This document shows, one piece after another, positions 58,222 to 63,081 of a stretch of DNA of 64,000 nucleotides. The DNA lies in assembly GCA_035609245.1 (NCBI GenBank), contig CP141202.1, positions 1,364,001-1,428,000 of the forward strand, written 5' to 3'. Each line of letters starts with the position of its first letter. Position 1 is the stretch's first letter. A program made the translations under genes and the position numbers. A model generated the notes under the pieces. It was not told the DNA's origin. It was given only the letters and a program-made list of their open reading frames with translations, and did not search any database. Source of the stretch: Bacteroidales bacterium MB20-C3-3. Lineage in GTDB: Bacteria > Bacteroidota > Bacteroidia > Bacteroidales > UBA932.

Positions 58222-58245
58222 CAGGAATTTCAAAAATAATATTCA

Positions 58246-58253
58246 TACATTTG
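58246..58253 (+). promoter_or_regulatory. Bacteroidota -7 element (TACATTTG) for the B12 operon
   Basis: TACATTTG fits TAnnTTTG and lies about 35 bases before the start of the cobalamin riboswitch, where its promoter is expected. Confidence 0.45.
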
Positions 58254-58284
58254 CAGTGAAATGGTAGTATTTATTTGCTTACTG

Positions 58285-58460
58285 CAAATGAAACTTTAAA
58301 ATGGGAATCAGGTTTAAATCCTGAGCTATACCCGTAGCCGTAAGTTCATTTTATGTTTTTCGAACTCTTTGACCACTGAGAGAATCAGGAAATATCACCT
58401 GAGAGTACTTGGGAAGGTCTCGAAAAACTGAACAAGCCGGAAGACCTGCCATAAAAAATA
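58285..58460 (+). ncRNA. Cobalamin riboswitch 1 (leader of the B12 uptake operon)
   Basis: Conserved blocks in order: GGGAATCAGG and AATCCTGAGCTATACCCGT, AGCCGTAAG, CCACTGAGAGAATC, GGGAAGG, and the B12 box AGCCGGAAGACCTGCC at 58435-58450. Between box and ATG 58544 lies a hairpin (58467-58493, GTAAAACTT with AAGTTTTTAC) that could act in the expression platform. Binding of adenosylcobalamin would lower expression of the downstream genes. Confidence 0.92.
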
Positions 58461-58543
58461 TTATTTGTAAAACTTCGGGAATAAAGTTTTTACGGGCAAT
58501 CTTTTTTATTGCACCCTTATTCCTGTTTAAACATTCAGTCTCT

Positions 58544-59941
58544 ATGAGAGCCTTTATCTCCTGGAGTGGTGGCAAAGATTGTACTCTTGCACTACATCAT
58601 TTTTTAAGCAATCCTCAAAATAAGGCCTGCTATCTTGTCCACTTTCAAACAGAAGAATCCGGGATTTCAAAACATCACAGATTTGGTAAAGATGTATTTG
58701 ATATGCAATCTGACTCCCTGGATATCCCACTGCTCTATGAGGAGGTTACCGCTATGGGATACGAACACCATCTTAAGAGAATAATTGACAGATGCAAGTC
58801 AGAAGGGATTTATGCAGGAGTCTTTGGAGATATATTTCTGGAGGAGCACAGGGCCTGGATTGAGAGGATCTGTAAGGAGAGTAATATTACCGCTCTTTTC
58901 CCATTATGGGGAATGAATACATTATCTGCAGTCCGGGAGTTCTGTAATTTAGGATACAAAGCAAGAGTTACCGGGACCAGAGAAGAGGAAGAGTTTTTGC
59001 CGCTTAAAGGGATGGATATTAATAACGAGTTCATCCAAAAGATTCAGACAATTGAAGGTGCTGATCCATGCGGCGAAAAGGGAGAGTATCATACTATGGC
59101 TTATGACGGACCTCTTTTCAAAAAGATAATCTCAATAATTGCTATACTATTGTTGTTGTTGCCGGGCATTAAGCTATCAGCGGAAAATTTCAGAAGAATT
59201 ATCTCTCTTACCCCATCTGTTACACAAAGCATATACTATTTAGGAGCCCGGGAGGCTCTCGTTGGTTGTACCAGTTATTGTCATATTGCAAAAAAAGATG
59301 GAGTAGAAATTGTCTCTTCTGCAATCAAACCAAATCTGGAAAAAATAGCAGCATTAAAACCAGATCTTGTCCTTGCATCCGGGATGATTTCTGAAAGAGA
59401 TATTAATACCCTTAGAAGGCTTGGGATAAAGGTAGAAATTCTCTCAACACCTAAGTCATATGAAGAGATTTGTACCCAGTTTGCAGCAATCGGAAAATTA
59501 ACCGGCAAAGAGCATGAAGCAAATCAAATAATCAAAAATTCCAGAGAGAGAGTCAATTCAGTTTACACAAAAATGAGGGCATCTGGAAAGAGGGATAGAT
59601 TTTTTATTCAGATTGGAGCTGCACCCATCTATACTGTAATACCACACACATTTATGGATGATTATATTAAATTTTCATATGGAGAAAACATTGCTTGTGA
59701 CCTGGAAAGTGGAACCATAGGAAGAGAGTTTGTTGTAGCAAGAGACCCTGACTACATTTTTATAGTCACTATGGGGATTGTTGGAAAAAACGAGGAGAGT
59801 GTGTGGAGAGGCTTTAGGAATTTAAAAGCTGTACGAAAAAATAAAATATTTATACTGGAATCTGAACAGGCATGTCAGCCAACTCCTGTGACTTTCGCAG
59901 AGACACTGGAAATTATTAATAAATACATATCAGAGAAATGA
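58544..59941 (+). CDS. Fusion: Dph6-like PP-loop ATPase plus BtuF-like cobalamin-binding domain
   Basis: 465 residues from ATG 58544; the frame upstream of it overlaps the riboswitch. Residues 1-194: adenine nucleotide alpha-hydrolase/diphthamide-synthase-like domain with SGGKDCTLA (8-16), FLEEHRAWIE (98-107), FPLWGMNT (119-126), and GEKGEYHTMAYDGP (177-190). Residues 195-209 are strongly hydrophobic and preceded by KK. Residues 218-465: periplasmic-binding fold like BtuF (RRIISLTPSVTQSIYYLGA, PDLVLASG, ACQPTPVTFAETLE). Predicted: ATPase in the cytoplasm, binding domain outside, one membrane span. Confidence 0.88.
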   Translation: MRAFISWSGGKDCTLALHHFLSNPQNKACYLVHFQTEESGISKHHRFGKDVFDMQSDSLDIPLLYEEVTAMGYEHHLKRIIDRCKSEGIYAGVFGDIFLEEHRAWIERICKESNITALFPLWGMNTLSAVREFCNLGYKARVTGTREEEEFLPLKGMDINNEFIQKIQTIEGADPCGEKGEYHTMAYDGPLFKKIISIIAILLLLLPGIKLSAENFRRIISLTPSVTQSIYYLGAREALVGCTSYCHIAKKDGVEIVSSAIKPNLEKIAALKPDLVLASGMISERDINTLRRLGIKVEILSTPKSYEEICTQFAAIGKLTGKEHEANQIIKNSRERVNSVYTKMRASGKRDRFFIQIGAAPIYTVIPHTFMDDYIKFSYGENIACDLESGTIGREFVVARDPDYIFIVTMGIVGKNEESVWRGFRNLKAVRKNKIFILESEQACQPTPVTFAETLEIINKYISEK

Positions 59942-60468
59942 AGACAAAGGGATTAATTCATGTTTATACCGGAGATGGAAAGGGCAAAACCACCTCTGCA
60001 ATTGGATTGGCTTCCAGAGCGCTAGGTGGAGGAATGAAAGTTTGTTATGTATCATTCCATAAACGCCCTGAGCTTTATGGATATACAGAAATGGATAGTT
60101 TGAAAAAACTGGGGGCAACTGTTCTGAATTTTGCCAAGGGTCATCCCCACCTGGACCAAAGCATAGATTCTGAAGAACTCTCAAATGAGGTCAGGAATGG
60201 GCTTAATCATATATCAAATTTGATCTCCAAAGAGAAATATGACCTGCTTATACTTGACGAAATAATAATATCAGTAAGAGACAAATATCTTAATGAGGAG
60301 GAGTTAATCTCATTTATTAAGGAGAAGCCGGAGGGGCTTGAACTGGTAATAACAGGCAGATCCGCAACTGATAATATGATTGAGATGGCAGACTATGTTA
60401 GTTTCATTAAGAAAATAAAACACCCTTACGATAATGGAATTACAAGCCGTAAAGGCATTGAGTATTAA
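59938..60468 (+). CDS. cobO: Corrinoid adenosyltransferase, CobO/BtuR type
   Basis: 176 residues. The P-loop is HVYTGDGKGKTTSAIGLA (about 8-25, GDGKGKTT), followed by VCYVSFHKRPE. The ending DLLILDEIIISVR (Walker B-like) and ELVITGRSA fit CobA/CobO/BtuR. It attaches the adenosyl group from ATP to cob(I)alamin or its precursors. Slightly shorter than the E. coli enzyme (196). Starts in an ATGA overlap with the fusion gene, so translation is coupled to transport. Confidence 0.93.
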   Translation: MKTKGLIHVYTGDGKGKTTSAIGLASRALGGGMKVCYVSFHKRPELYGYTEMDSLKKLGATVLNFAKGHPHLDQSIDSEELSNEVRNGLNHISNLISKEKYDLLILDEIIISVRDKYLNEEELISFIKEKPEGLELVITGRSATDNMIEMADYVSFIKKIKHPYDNGITSRKGIEY

Positions 60469-61444
60469 AACAGGAAAAATTGCTCTCCTTATTGCTTTAT
60501 TGTTTTTTGCATCCCTTCTATCCCTGGGGACCGGGGAAATAAATATTTCATTTAATGAACTTCTTCATTTTATTAATAATGAAGGATCTGTTTATTATGA
60601 GGTTCTTCACAATATAAGAATTCCCAGAACGCTTCTTGCAATTGCAACCGGAGGAGCATTAGGATTGTCAGGTACAATACTTCAGGGAGTCTACCGGAAT
60701 CCCTTAGTTGAACCATATACACTGGGTATTTCCGGAGGGGCATCTCTGGGTATAACGATTGTTATCGTCACAGGTATTAACGCAACCGGCATAGTATCAT
60801 TACCTCTTGCCGGCTTTTCCGGAGCACTTGTGACAATTTTTCTGGTATACTTTCTTAGCTACAGGAGAGAGGGTATAAATATTACAAAAATGCTTCTTAC
60901 AGGAGTTATGATAAGCTTTATCTCAGCCTCTGCTGTTATGTTCCTGATGTCAATCACTGCTGTTGAGAACATCCACGGGATAGTCTTCTGGACAATGGGC
61001 TCTCTTAATGAATCAGATCCGTTTATGGTTTATGGAATGCTGACTATATCAATTTTGGGCCTCCTCTTGTCATACCTCTTTGTATCTCCTCTAAATGCAT
61101 TAAGGCTGGGAGAATCAGCAGCAAGATCTCTTGGAGTTAACACAAAATTGACAATATGTATTCTCTTCCTGATAACATCACTGCTGACAGGAAGCGCAAT
61201 TGCAGTTTCCGGTGTGATAGGATTTGTAGGGCTTGTCATTCCTCACATTTCCAGGCTAATAGCAGGCACAAATTACAGAACTCTTCTTATTATCTCATTT
61301 TTGTCCGGAAGTGTATTTATGCTCCTCTGTGATATGCTTGCGAGAACACTGGTCTTTCCAAACGAGCTCCCTATAGGAGTTATAACAGGTATTTTTGGTG
61401 GTATAACATTTATTGCACTCATATGGATAAAAAAGAGTACTTGA
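60434..61444 (+). CDS. btuC: Cobalamin ABC transporter permease (BtuC/FecCD family)
   Basis: 336 residues with about ten transmembrane segments. FecCD-family features: NIRIPRTLLAIATGGALGLSG, VEPYTLGISGGASLG, and VIGFVGLVIPHISRLIAG near the cytoplasmic coupling region. It would import corrinoid (possibly another chelate, but the riboswitch argues for B12) with the fused BtuF domain and BtuD. It overlaps cobO by 35 bases and btuD by 22. Confidence 0.93.
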   Translation: MELQAVKALSIKTGKIALLIALLFFASLLSLGTGEINISFNELLHFINNEGSVYYEVLHNIRIPRTLLAIATGGALGLSGTILQGVYRNPLVEPYTLGISGGASLGITIVIVTGINATGIVSLPLAGFSGALVTIFLVYFLSYRREGINITKMLLTGVMISFISASAVMFLMSITAVENIHGIVFWTMGSLNESDPFMVYGMLTISILGLLLSYLFVSPLNALRLGESAARSLGVNTKLTICILFLITSLLTGSAIAVSGVIGFVGLVIPHISRLIAGTNYRTLLIISFLSGSVFMLLCDMLARTLVFPNELPIGVITGIFGGITFIALIWIKKST

Positions 61445-62235
61445 TAATTAAGAACCTCACCTGTGGGTATATGGGTGGATTTAAACTTGAACCTGTCAAT
61501 TTAGTATTGAAAAGGGGATGTTTTGCAGGTGTTATTGGATGTAACGGATCCGGAAAAAGTACCCTTTTCAAAGGACTCTCAGGCGAGTTAAATCTTTCAG
61601 GAGGAGAAATTCTCCTTGATGGTATTAGTTTATCAAAACTCTCACTTAAAGAGAGGGCAAGGAGGGTCGCTCTTGTTCCACAGTTTATTGAAAAAAGTCC
61701 CATAACGGTAGAGGAGTATGTTCTTATGGGACGAATGCCGTACCAGAGGCTCTTTCAATATTCAGAGTCAAAAGAGGATATTGAAATAACTAAAGAGAGC
61801 CTTGAACAGACAGGGATATTTCACCTCAGGAAGAAGAGGGTGACAGAGATCAGCGGAGGAGAACAGCAGATGACTGCTATAGCATGCGCACTTAATCAAA
61901 AACCGGGACTTATGCTTTTAGATGAACCCACTTCCCATCTTGATATCAAGTTCCAGTCAAAAATCATGAATCTTCTTCAGCGGTTAAATGAGGAGGAGAG
62001 GCTCACTGTAATTATGATAATACACGACCTTAATCTGGCAGGAGAGTACTGTGACCACCTTTCACTTATAAAAGAGGGTAAAATAATTATACAGGGGAGT
62101 CCGGAAGAGGTGCTTACATACACGAACATTGAGCTTGCGTATAGTTCTGTAGTTGTTGAGAGCAGGAATCCTGTATCAGGCAAACCGGCAATATTTCAAG
62201 TATCAGAAAAGTTTTCCGGGAGGGGGATATCATGA
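61423..62235 (+). CDS. btuD: Cobalamin ABC transporter ATP-binding protein (BtuD/FepC family)
   Basis: 270 residues. Walker A GCNGSGKST, Q-loop in LVPQFIEKSP, signature ISGGEQQMTAIACAL, Walker B LMLLDEPTSHLD, and H-loop IIHDLNLAG. Typical of siderophore/B12 importers. It overlaps btuC and the following phosphatase gene (ATGA), so all five genes from 58544 to 62816 form one coupled unit. Confidence 0.94.
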   Translation: MDKKEYLIIKNLTCGYMGGFKLEPVNLVLKRGCFAGVIGCNGSGKSTLFKGLSGELNLSGGEILLDGISLSKLSLKERARRVALVPQFIEKSPITVEEYVLMGRMPYQRLFQYSESKEDIEITKESLEQTGIFHLRKKRVTEISGGEQQMTAIACALNQKPGLMLLDEPTSHLDIKFQSKIMNLLQRLNEEERLTVIMIIHDLNLAGEYCDHLSLIKEGKIIIQGSPEEVLTYTNIELAYSSVVVESRNPVSGKPAIFQVSEKFSGRGIS

Positions 62236-62816
62236 AAGTAGTACTGGTTAGACATGGAGAAACAATAGAGAACAGAGAGGGAATCTGTCAGGGGCAAACC
62301 GAAGGGAGGCTGAGCGAGCTTGGAGTATTACAGGCCTGGCTTACGGCCGGAGAGTTAAAAAACACAAATATTGATCTCTGCATTTCCAGTGATTTAAAAA
62401 GAGCGATTGAGACTGCAGAGATTATTTTAACCGGAAGAGATATCTATATAGATAAAGAGCCCTCCCTCAGAGAGAGAAATTATGGAAAACTTCAGGGAAG
62501 ACATTTTTCTGACTTTTCAATTACTCCTGATCTGATGGAAAATATGGAGAGCGAAGAGGAGCTTAAAAATCGTGTAAGCTTTATTGTAAGATTACTAAAG
62601 AGGTCTCCTCTGTCCAGCAATGTTTTAATTGTCAGTCATGGAATAACATTAAGAATCCTGATACTCTCACTTATTGAAAATAGTGAGAAGTGTGATTTAG
62701 TCAATTCTGAAAAAATTGATAACTGTTCAATTACAATTTTAGAAAGAGATGACTCGGGTCATTTCACCATAAAAGAGTTCAATAATACAAACCACTTAAA
62801 AACTAACTGCCTATGA
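62232..62816 (+). CDS. Histidine phosphatase, CobC-like (alpha-ribazole phosphatase type)
   Basis: 194 residues. The catalytic motif is LVRHGETIENREGICQG (Arg7, His8, Gly9), and the second histidine is in VLIVSHGITLRIL (SHG). The phosphoglycerate-mutase-like fold includes CobC, which dephosphorylates alpha-ribazole phosphate in nucleotide-loop assembly. The B12 operon context supports that; sequence alone cannot separate it from other small phosphatases. Confidence 0.85.
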   Translation: MKVVLVRHGETIENREGICQGQTEGRLSELGVLQAWLTAGELKNTNIDLCISSDLKRAIETAEIILTGRDIYIDKEPSLRERNYGKLQGRHFSDFSITPDLMENMESEEELKNRVSFIVRLLKRSPLSSNVLIVSHGITLRILILSLIENSEKCDLVNSEKIDNCSITILERDDSGHFTIKEFNNTNHLKTNCL

Positions 62817-62847
62817 CAATTTAACAAAAAGCCTTAAATCAAAAAAT

Positions 62848-63000
62848 GTCGACACAATGGAATCCGGTAATCTTATTGTATAGAAAAGCCGGAGCTGTAC
62901 CCGCAGCCGTATGTCATTTAATACTTCTGAAGCACATAAGCCACTGTCCTATAGGATGGGAAGGCGTCAGAAGCAAGACAAGCCGGAAGACCTGTCGCCA
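62848..63000 (+). ncRNA. Cobalamin riboswitch 2 (leader of the TonB receptor gene)
   Basis: Conserved blocks: GGAATCCGGT, AGCTGTACCCGCAGCCGTATG, CCACTGTCCTATAGGATGGGAAGG and the B12 box AGCCGGAAGACCTGTC (62981-62996). A hairpin follows at 63036-63055 (GTTTATG with CATAAAC), possibly the expression platform. The start ATG of the receptor is at 63082, 86 bases after the box. An upstream promoter was not identified. Confidence 0.92.
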
Positions 63001-63081
63001 AGAACCATCGCTTTCGGGAAAAAAGGCACTCGAGAGTTTATGGTTAAGCATAAACGTTTAACTAATAACTTTTTTACAATA

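Follow-up and report, generated by a model that had tools for sequence, protein, structure and literature searches.

A DUF71-B12 ATPase and a BtuF-like binding protein encoded as one gene behind a cobalamin riboswitch in Bacteroidales

The window analysed here is a stretch of 64,000 nucleotides from the genome of Bacteroidales bacterium MB20-C3-3 (contig CP141202.1). Near its 3′ end, the first gene downstream of a cobalamin riboswitch encodes an ATPase and a BtuF-like binding protein in one frame, and is followed by a run of genes for the uptake and salvage of vitamin B12. The features that concern us are the following:

58245..58467, + strand: cobalamin riboswitch aptamer (RF00174, 73.4 bits, E 3.4e-16), 76 bases 5′ of the fused gene
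58544..59941, + strand: fused gene for a DUF71-B12 ATPase and a BtuF-like binding protein, 465 aa (translation, Pfam, same fusion in other species)
58544..59119, + strand: DUF71/COG2102 PP-loop ATPase part, residues 1-192; a C-terminal tail of about 25 residues is gone and the PF01902 match stops at 199/219
59096..59098, + strand: in-frame ATG (M185), where translation of the BtuF part might also begin in two of the three fused species; the third (G012) has none
59120..59182, + strand: former signal peptide, residues 193-213, with KK, an apolar run of 12, PGIK, and LSA preceding Glu214
59198..59938, + strand: BtuF-like periplasmic part, predicted corrinoid-binding, residues 219-465 (PF01497, E 6.7e-24; matches 1n2z, 5ysc)
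59938..60468, + strand: CobO/BtuR-like corrinoid adenosyltransferase (NCBIfam cobA, E 5.2e-44, under its cut-off), with a 4-base ATGA overlap with the fused gene
60434..61444, + strand: BtuC-like permease (best match NF003001 BtuC, E 3e-62, under the curated cut-off)
61423..62235, + strand: BtuD-like ABC ATPase (best matches are heme, F420-0, FecE and corrinoid ATPase models)
62232..62816, + strand: CobC-like phosphatase (TIGR03162, E 1.6e-22, under cut-off)
62800..63013, + strand: second cobalamin riboswitch, preceding a TonB-dependent receptor and a CobU-CobT-CobS-CobC-CobQ-CobD-CbiB run

Translation of 58544-59941 gives 465 residues with a single terminal stop and no internal one, just as a first-pass annotation of these letters had stated. 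The motifs SGGKDCTLA (residues 8-16) and GEKGEYHTMAYDGP (177-190) lie where that annotation placed them, while the hydrophobic span that it gave as 195-209 is found as an apolar run at 195-206. Pfam assigns residues 1-199 to PF01902 (E 6.8e-36) and residues 219-440 to PF01497, the latter in agreement with a BtuF-like domain proposed at about 218-465. The BtuF signal sequence comes directly after the truncated ATPase, and residues 193-213 do have the signal-peptide-like KK and hydrophobic start that had been described for the second half.

The CobO and the CobC-like phosphatase that had been reported from the same operon are both present, with model scores under the cut-offs. For the BtuD-like ATPase the best 25 model matches all fall under their cut-offs, and the name rests on context. 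The TonB-dependent receptor after the second riboswitch was assigned by PF00593 and PF07715. Beyond the 64-kb window CobU, CobT, CobS, CobC, CobQ, CobD and CbiB follow in succession, with CobT, CobC, CobQ and CbiB above a curated cut-off and CobU, CobS and CobD below. A cobalamin riboswitch also lies directly 5′ of the corresponding gene in three relatives (G022, G012 and G007), whose matching regions hold two such riboswitches each.

The second half of the protein matches BtuF (1n2z) and the vitamin B12-binding protein 5ysc, and covers positions 1-233 of the 235 of PF01497. As expected of a BtuF, the Peripla_BP_2 domain has BtuCD-like partner genes adjoining it; the match to the NCBIfam BtuF equivalog is under its cut-off (88.2 vs 234 bits). 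The signal peptide expected of BtuF is not at the N-terminus, and the signal-like segment is at 193-213. There is one other PF01497 match in the genome (G000:C1:231644-232348, in L094:2492-3583). Its start resembles a lipoprotein signal by eye, and visual inspection of the surrounding 6 kb showed no recognisable B12 gene.

The ATPase half had been called Dph6-like. The solved relatives found by sequence are 3rjz/3rk0/3rk1 and 2d13 (for 3rjz, which is PF0828, E 8e-17), and PF01902 is matched over positions 1-199/219 with 124.3 bits against a curated cut-off of 23.2, the tail missing. However, His183, within GEKGEYH, aligns with Glu188 of PF0828, and the EGGE/DxE188 motif is not present, so we rejected the Dph6 identity. 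In the accessible text of the paper that predicted its role, His in place of Glu188 marks the DUF71-B12 subgroup (PMC3541065). The locus also shows the context of that subgroup, with B12 transport genes and cbiB clustered around the fused gene. In the ENGE(F/Y)H motif the N has become K in the window species and is kept in G022 and G012; the residues of the PP-loop (S8-D12) and of GE.GEYHT are invariant across the three fused species. On these sequence features, the ATPase part is a member of the DUF71-B12 subgroup of COG2102/PF01902.

The same accessible text reports that 75/102 DUF71-B12 genes adjoin B12 transporter genes and that DUF71-B12 and CbiZ are strictly anti-correlated in bacteria. 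It predicted in 2012 that DUF71-B12 acts in B12 salvage, perhaps replacing CbiZ, by adenosylpseudocobalamin cleavage or in another salvage step (PMC3541065). A table of 2016, as far as its accessible part goes, still enters the subgroup as ‘function unknown, B12 salvage’ (PMC5041015). Given the prediction of 2012, the remark in the first-pass annotation that bacterial roles are open is correct only in part. In the literature searched (published papers, few of them subscription ones) we found no test of the role of DUF71-B12 after the prediction, and no description of a DUF71-BtuF fusion. The neighbouring DUF71-BtuF pair is already known; the merged single-gene form appears to be new.

The DUF71-B12/BtuF fusion is genuine, and it is one gene. 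Profiles and neighbours bear out the proposal of a COG2102/DUF71 PP-loop ATPase fused to a BtuF-like protein in a B12 operon, and the arrangement is conserved beyond this genome (G000). In another assembly of the species (G060), 1 of the gene's 1398 bases differs, and the same fused frame is found in two further members of the genus, each a different species: a Bacteroidales MAG (G022, 68% identity) and Bacteroidetes bacterium 41-46 (G012, 63%). An assembly or sequencing error that masks a stop or a frameshift at the junction would agree with the two genes of the other relatives read closely. Nevertheless, the same open junction frame in four assemblies from three species leaves this with a negligible probability; the second assembly and the two other species effectively exclude it.

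With the fused protein as query we searched 60 relatives, and genomes of the genus (25), family (199), order (393), class (395) and phylum (395), sets which overlap. A single stop-free row over both domains came only from these four assemblies (for the class and phylum, among the matches listed), but a distant fusion would show as two rows. Four of the 25 genus genomes (the three fused species) carry the fusion, the two genes are separate in G007, only a BtuF-type match came from G010 and G006, G016 has a weak partial match, and the remaining 17 gave no match to the fused protein. Among the order genomes the fusion is found in 1/393, the window's own, and four others (G045, G323, G344 and G398) have both matches side by side in the order of the fusion. 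In G047:C13, G331:C126, G810:C15 and G918:C5 the BtuF-like and DUF71 genes are adjacent in the reverse order, with BtuF first. All ten relatives read closely (the sister G007 and nine others) have two genes side by side. The count of fused against split forms suggested by the first-pass annotation thus gives both: these relatives are split, yet two further species are fused.

Some less clear matches were read individually. Rows with a stop, or reaching only slightly into the second half, came from G010, G298, G601 and G614. The first two both begin near residue 160 and have one TAA each; the sequences fetched for G601 and G614 are plain DUF71 genes, and these were rejected as fusions. Fourteen DUF71 matches with longer reported frames (L070-L073 and ten other regions) were read and none is fused to BtuF. 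Frame lengths from the genome search are unreliable, e.g. those of G045 (522) and L104 (557) span a stop. In L104 (G704), behind a distant DUF71 gene and its stop, a BtuF-like stretch continues in the same frame; this distant split pair illustrates that in-frame DUF71/BtuF neighbours exist elsewhere without fusion. Tandem pairs of divergent DUF71 genes were seen at G330:C14:7234-8528, G910:C1:479714-480961 and G774:C66:3371-4635. Despite this search, independent fusions may exist elsewhere.

The split pairs show what the fused gene has lost. In nine of them and in G045 the ATPase runs about 23-28 residues past the last conserved motif and then stops, after which btuF begins with its own signal peptide. 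The btuF start lies -8 to +48 bases from the ATPase stop in 8/10 split pairs, and 134 and 244 bases from it in L064 and G344; for G007 we took the ATG 4 bases past the stop, rather than the earliest in-frame ATG, which lies 44 bases short of the ATPase end. The fused forms lack the ATPase tail, its stop and the btuF start, and their PF01902 profile match ends at 195-199/219, against 210-216 in four split relatives.

Maximum-likelihood trees were built for the BtuF part (39 rows with at least 200 aligned residues and at least 38% identity, one row per locus) and for the ATPase part (33 rows with at least 170 aligned residues and at least 33% identity). The three fused rows form one clade in both (100/94 for BtuF, 97/97 for DUF71), with the split G007 as sister in each, and the first-branching fused species differs between the two. 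A single fusion event in the ancestor of the three species is the simplest reading of these trees. The DUF71 tree also has two well separated Bacteroidota groups, one of 13 rows that includes the B12-operon ones, and one of 20.

Identity among the fused species is 59-68% in the ATPase part, 71-75% in the BtuF part and 21-39% in the link. For the ATPase part dN/dS (NG86) is 0.11, 0.11 and 0.19 for the three fused pairs, and 0.13 by YN00 for one pair, ratios that are rough as dS is saturated (1.2 to 2.9); in the BtuF part dS is saturated as well and yielded no ratio. From these comparisons both the ATPase and the BtuF parts look maintained, with the link freer to vary. Could the truncated DUF71 part nevertheless be inactive, a decaying domain riding on BtuF? 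The early end of the PF01902 match and the long DUF71 branch to this genus (0.73 in the ML tree) are what such decay might leave behind, and the loss of the last 25 or so residues could have impaired the ATPase. That said, the PP-loop and GE.GEYHT residues are invariant in all three species, and the dN/dS ratios of 0.11-0.19, even with saturated dS, argue against decay, which we regard as highly improbable.

The link between the two parts resembles a signal peptide. In all three fused species it has at least two Lys/Arg, an apolar run of 12, 12 or 13 residues, and small-residue sites of the cleavage type. The candidate sites are LSA/E, IGS/S or GSS/E, and TLS/C or LSC/E, the last two in G012; our home-made filter for them found a site in 10/11 segments, and missed that of G007, whose LSA/ED is farther from the apolar run. 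Maximal 19-residue hydropathy is 1.71-2.42 in the fused spans vs 1.57-2.14 in eight split signal peptides, and since these ranges overlap an anchor and a cleavable signal look alike by sequence. The first-pass annotation took the protein to span the inner membrane. A permanent span does not follow from the sequence: the span has the same character as the signal peptides of the split relatives, and nothing in it proves a membrane anchor. Because its make-up is still that of a cleavable signal peptide in 3/3 fused species, cleavage appears at least as likely as a permanent membrane-spanning two-domain protein. BtuF may thus be freed by cleavage while the ATPase stays anchored. A literature search on internal signal sequences found no paper.

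Taken to its end, cleavage would make the product a self-splitting polyprotein, in which signal peptidase I cuts every chain to give an ordinary soluble BtuF in the periplasm and an unchanged ATPase, the fusion being a neutral means of 1:1 translation. The small residues at the candidate sites in 3/3 fused species and the short apolar run ending in Pro agree with this, and 8/10 split pairs are so tightly packed (-8 to +48 bases) that a small deletion could fuse them. However, the fusion has been retained through the divergence of three species (63-68% identity), it is not obvious that losing the ATPase tail is neutral, and the TLS/C and LSC/E sites of G012 are less typical than LSA/E. We therefore consider the polyprotein possible, if somewhat doubtful.

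A normal BtuF precursor could also be made from a second start. It had been claimed that no methionine precedes the second half, but there is an in-frame ATG (M185, base 59096) roughly 10 residues ahead of the apolar run in the window species and in G022, with GGAGAG upstream in both. Initiation there, besides translation of the long ATPase chain, is possible in these two of the three fused species, and this counts against the single-chain account that we favour below. Met occupies the site in 2/40 DUF71 rows, both of them fused; two unfused DUF71 proteins, L113 and L104, also have HTM there, so the residue is weak evidence. Furthermore, GGAGAG encodes a conserved Gly-Glu, and M185 was probably inherited once by both species. 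In G012 the stretch from residue 167 to the apolar run lacks ATG, GTG and TTG codons; extended to the BtuF domain, it contains one, a TTG at 219 behind that run. Barring a rarer start, the exported BtuF of G012 must derive from the long chain. We therefore rejected internal initiation as an account that holds for all three species, and overall we judge it improbable.

CbiZ and CbiR belong to protein families different from DUF71. We did not find CbiZ in any of 14 genomes searched, nor CbiC, the corrin-ring marker, in any of five (completeness 61-99%), while CbiB is present in the window genome and, in both G022 and G012, adjoins the fused operon. Gene content of this kind, without CbiZ or CbiC but with CbiB and CobUTSCQD, fits the 2012 prediction of DUF71-B12 in salvage, and the host looks like a B12 salvager. 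Nine of the 14 CbiZ-less genomes carry DUF71 and BtuF as a pair or fused. The remaining five (G006, G010, G042, G244 and G480) gave a BtuF-type match only and no DUF71 match, so a lack of CbiZ does not by itself call for DUF71. In a search that covered CbiZ and CbiC, DUF71 would be a fitting candidate for the step that yields cobyric acid for CbiB. A CobQ, cobyric acid synthase, is encoded at G000:C1:1432011-1433477 (L093:10512-11978), in the salvage operon of a genome in which CbiC was not found. If salvage is limited to finished cobamides this CobQ is unexplained, which counts against the account that follows.

We propose the following account as a whole, and put its probability at roughly 55%. 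The fused gene would be translated as a single chain whose residues 1-192 form a DUF71-B12 PP-loop ATPase in the cytoplasm. Residues 193-213, formerly the signal sequence of BtuF, would then enter the Sec machinery with their N-terminal side cytoplasmic, carrying the BtuF domain to the periplasm, where it would pass corrinoids to BtuCD. Whether or not signal peptidase cuts behind residue 213, the tail-less ATPase would gain a membrane helix and be located at the inner membrane. There it would act early in the salvage of incoming corrinoids. The likeliest reaction, which we infer from the genomic prediction for DUF71-B12, is an ATP-dependent removal of the unwanted lower-ligand arm, giving cobyric acid that would be rebuilt by the membrane protein CbiB.

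The stricter form of this proposal has an intact one-pass chain, in which capture by BtuF and entry through BtuCD would be coupled to a cytoplasmic ATP-dependent remodelling enzyme feeding CbiB; this we offer tentatively. If true, uptake and remodelling would be linked within one protein, an unusual enzyme with a transport receptor in the periplasm and a catalyst in the cytoplasm, and the role of DUF71-B12 would gain direct genomic support.

Cut or uncut, the fusion would hold a DUF71-B12 enzyme at the membrane through which B12 comes into the cell. That the enzyme is joined in nature to a corrinoid-binding protein links it to incoming cobamides and not to some other step, and the gene is a compact one-gene target for probing a role predicted since 2012. 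The fusion is also relevant to the idea of a membrane-based organisation of B12 salvage. In the accessible text of their paper, the authors of work on CobS suggest that CbiB and CobS anchor a late-pathway complex at the membrane, perhaps including corrinoid transporters and an adenosyltransferase (PMC8092220); another source, likewise seen in its accessible part, suggests that the action of CbiR and CbiZ is possibly coupled to uptake (PMC7733943). The fusion fits both ideas.

How does the fused protein compare with known systems? It shares with the cobamide-remodelling hydrolases CbiZ and CbiR its proposed place in the pathway and, going by the accessible text on them, a suggested coupling to uptake (PMC7733943); unlike in CbiZ-based remodelling, CbiZ was not found here and a DUF71-B12 ATPase is present. 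With the diphthine-ammonia ligase Dph6 it shares the PP-loop family by sequence (3rjz/PF0828, E 8e-17), but the window ATPase has no Glu at the 188 position, is bacterial and is located in a B12 operon. DUF71-B12 as described in the accessible part of PMC3541065 is closer, with His for Glu188, btuCD/btuF and cbiB as neighbours, and CbiZ not found; the window protein differs in having lost the last 20 or so profile positions, in the K for N in its motif and in being joined to BtuF. Finally, like BtuF itself (1n2z, 5ysc), it has an end-to-end PF01497 domain with btuC- and btuD-like genes alongside, whereas its signal sequence is internal, behind a 192-residue enzyme that is predicted to be cytoplasmic.
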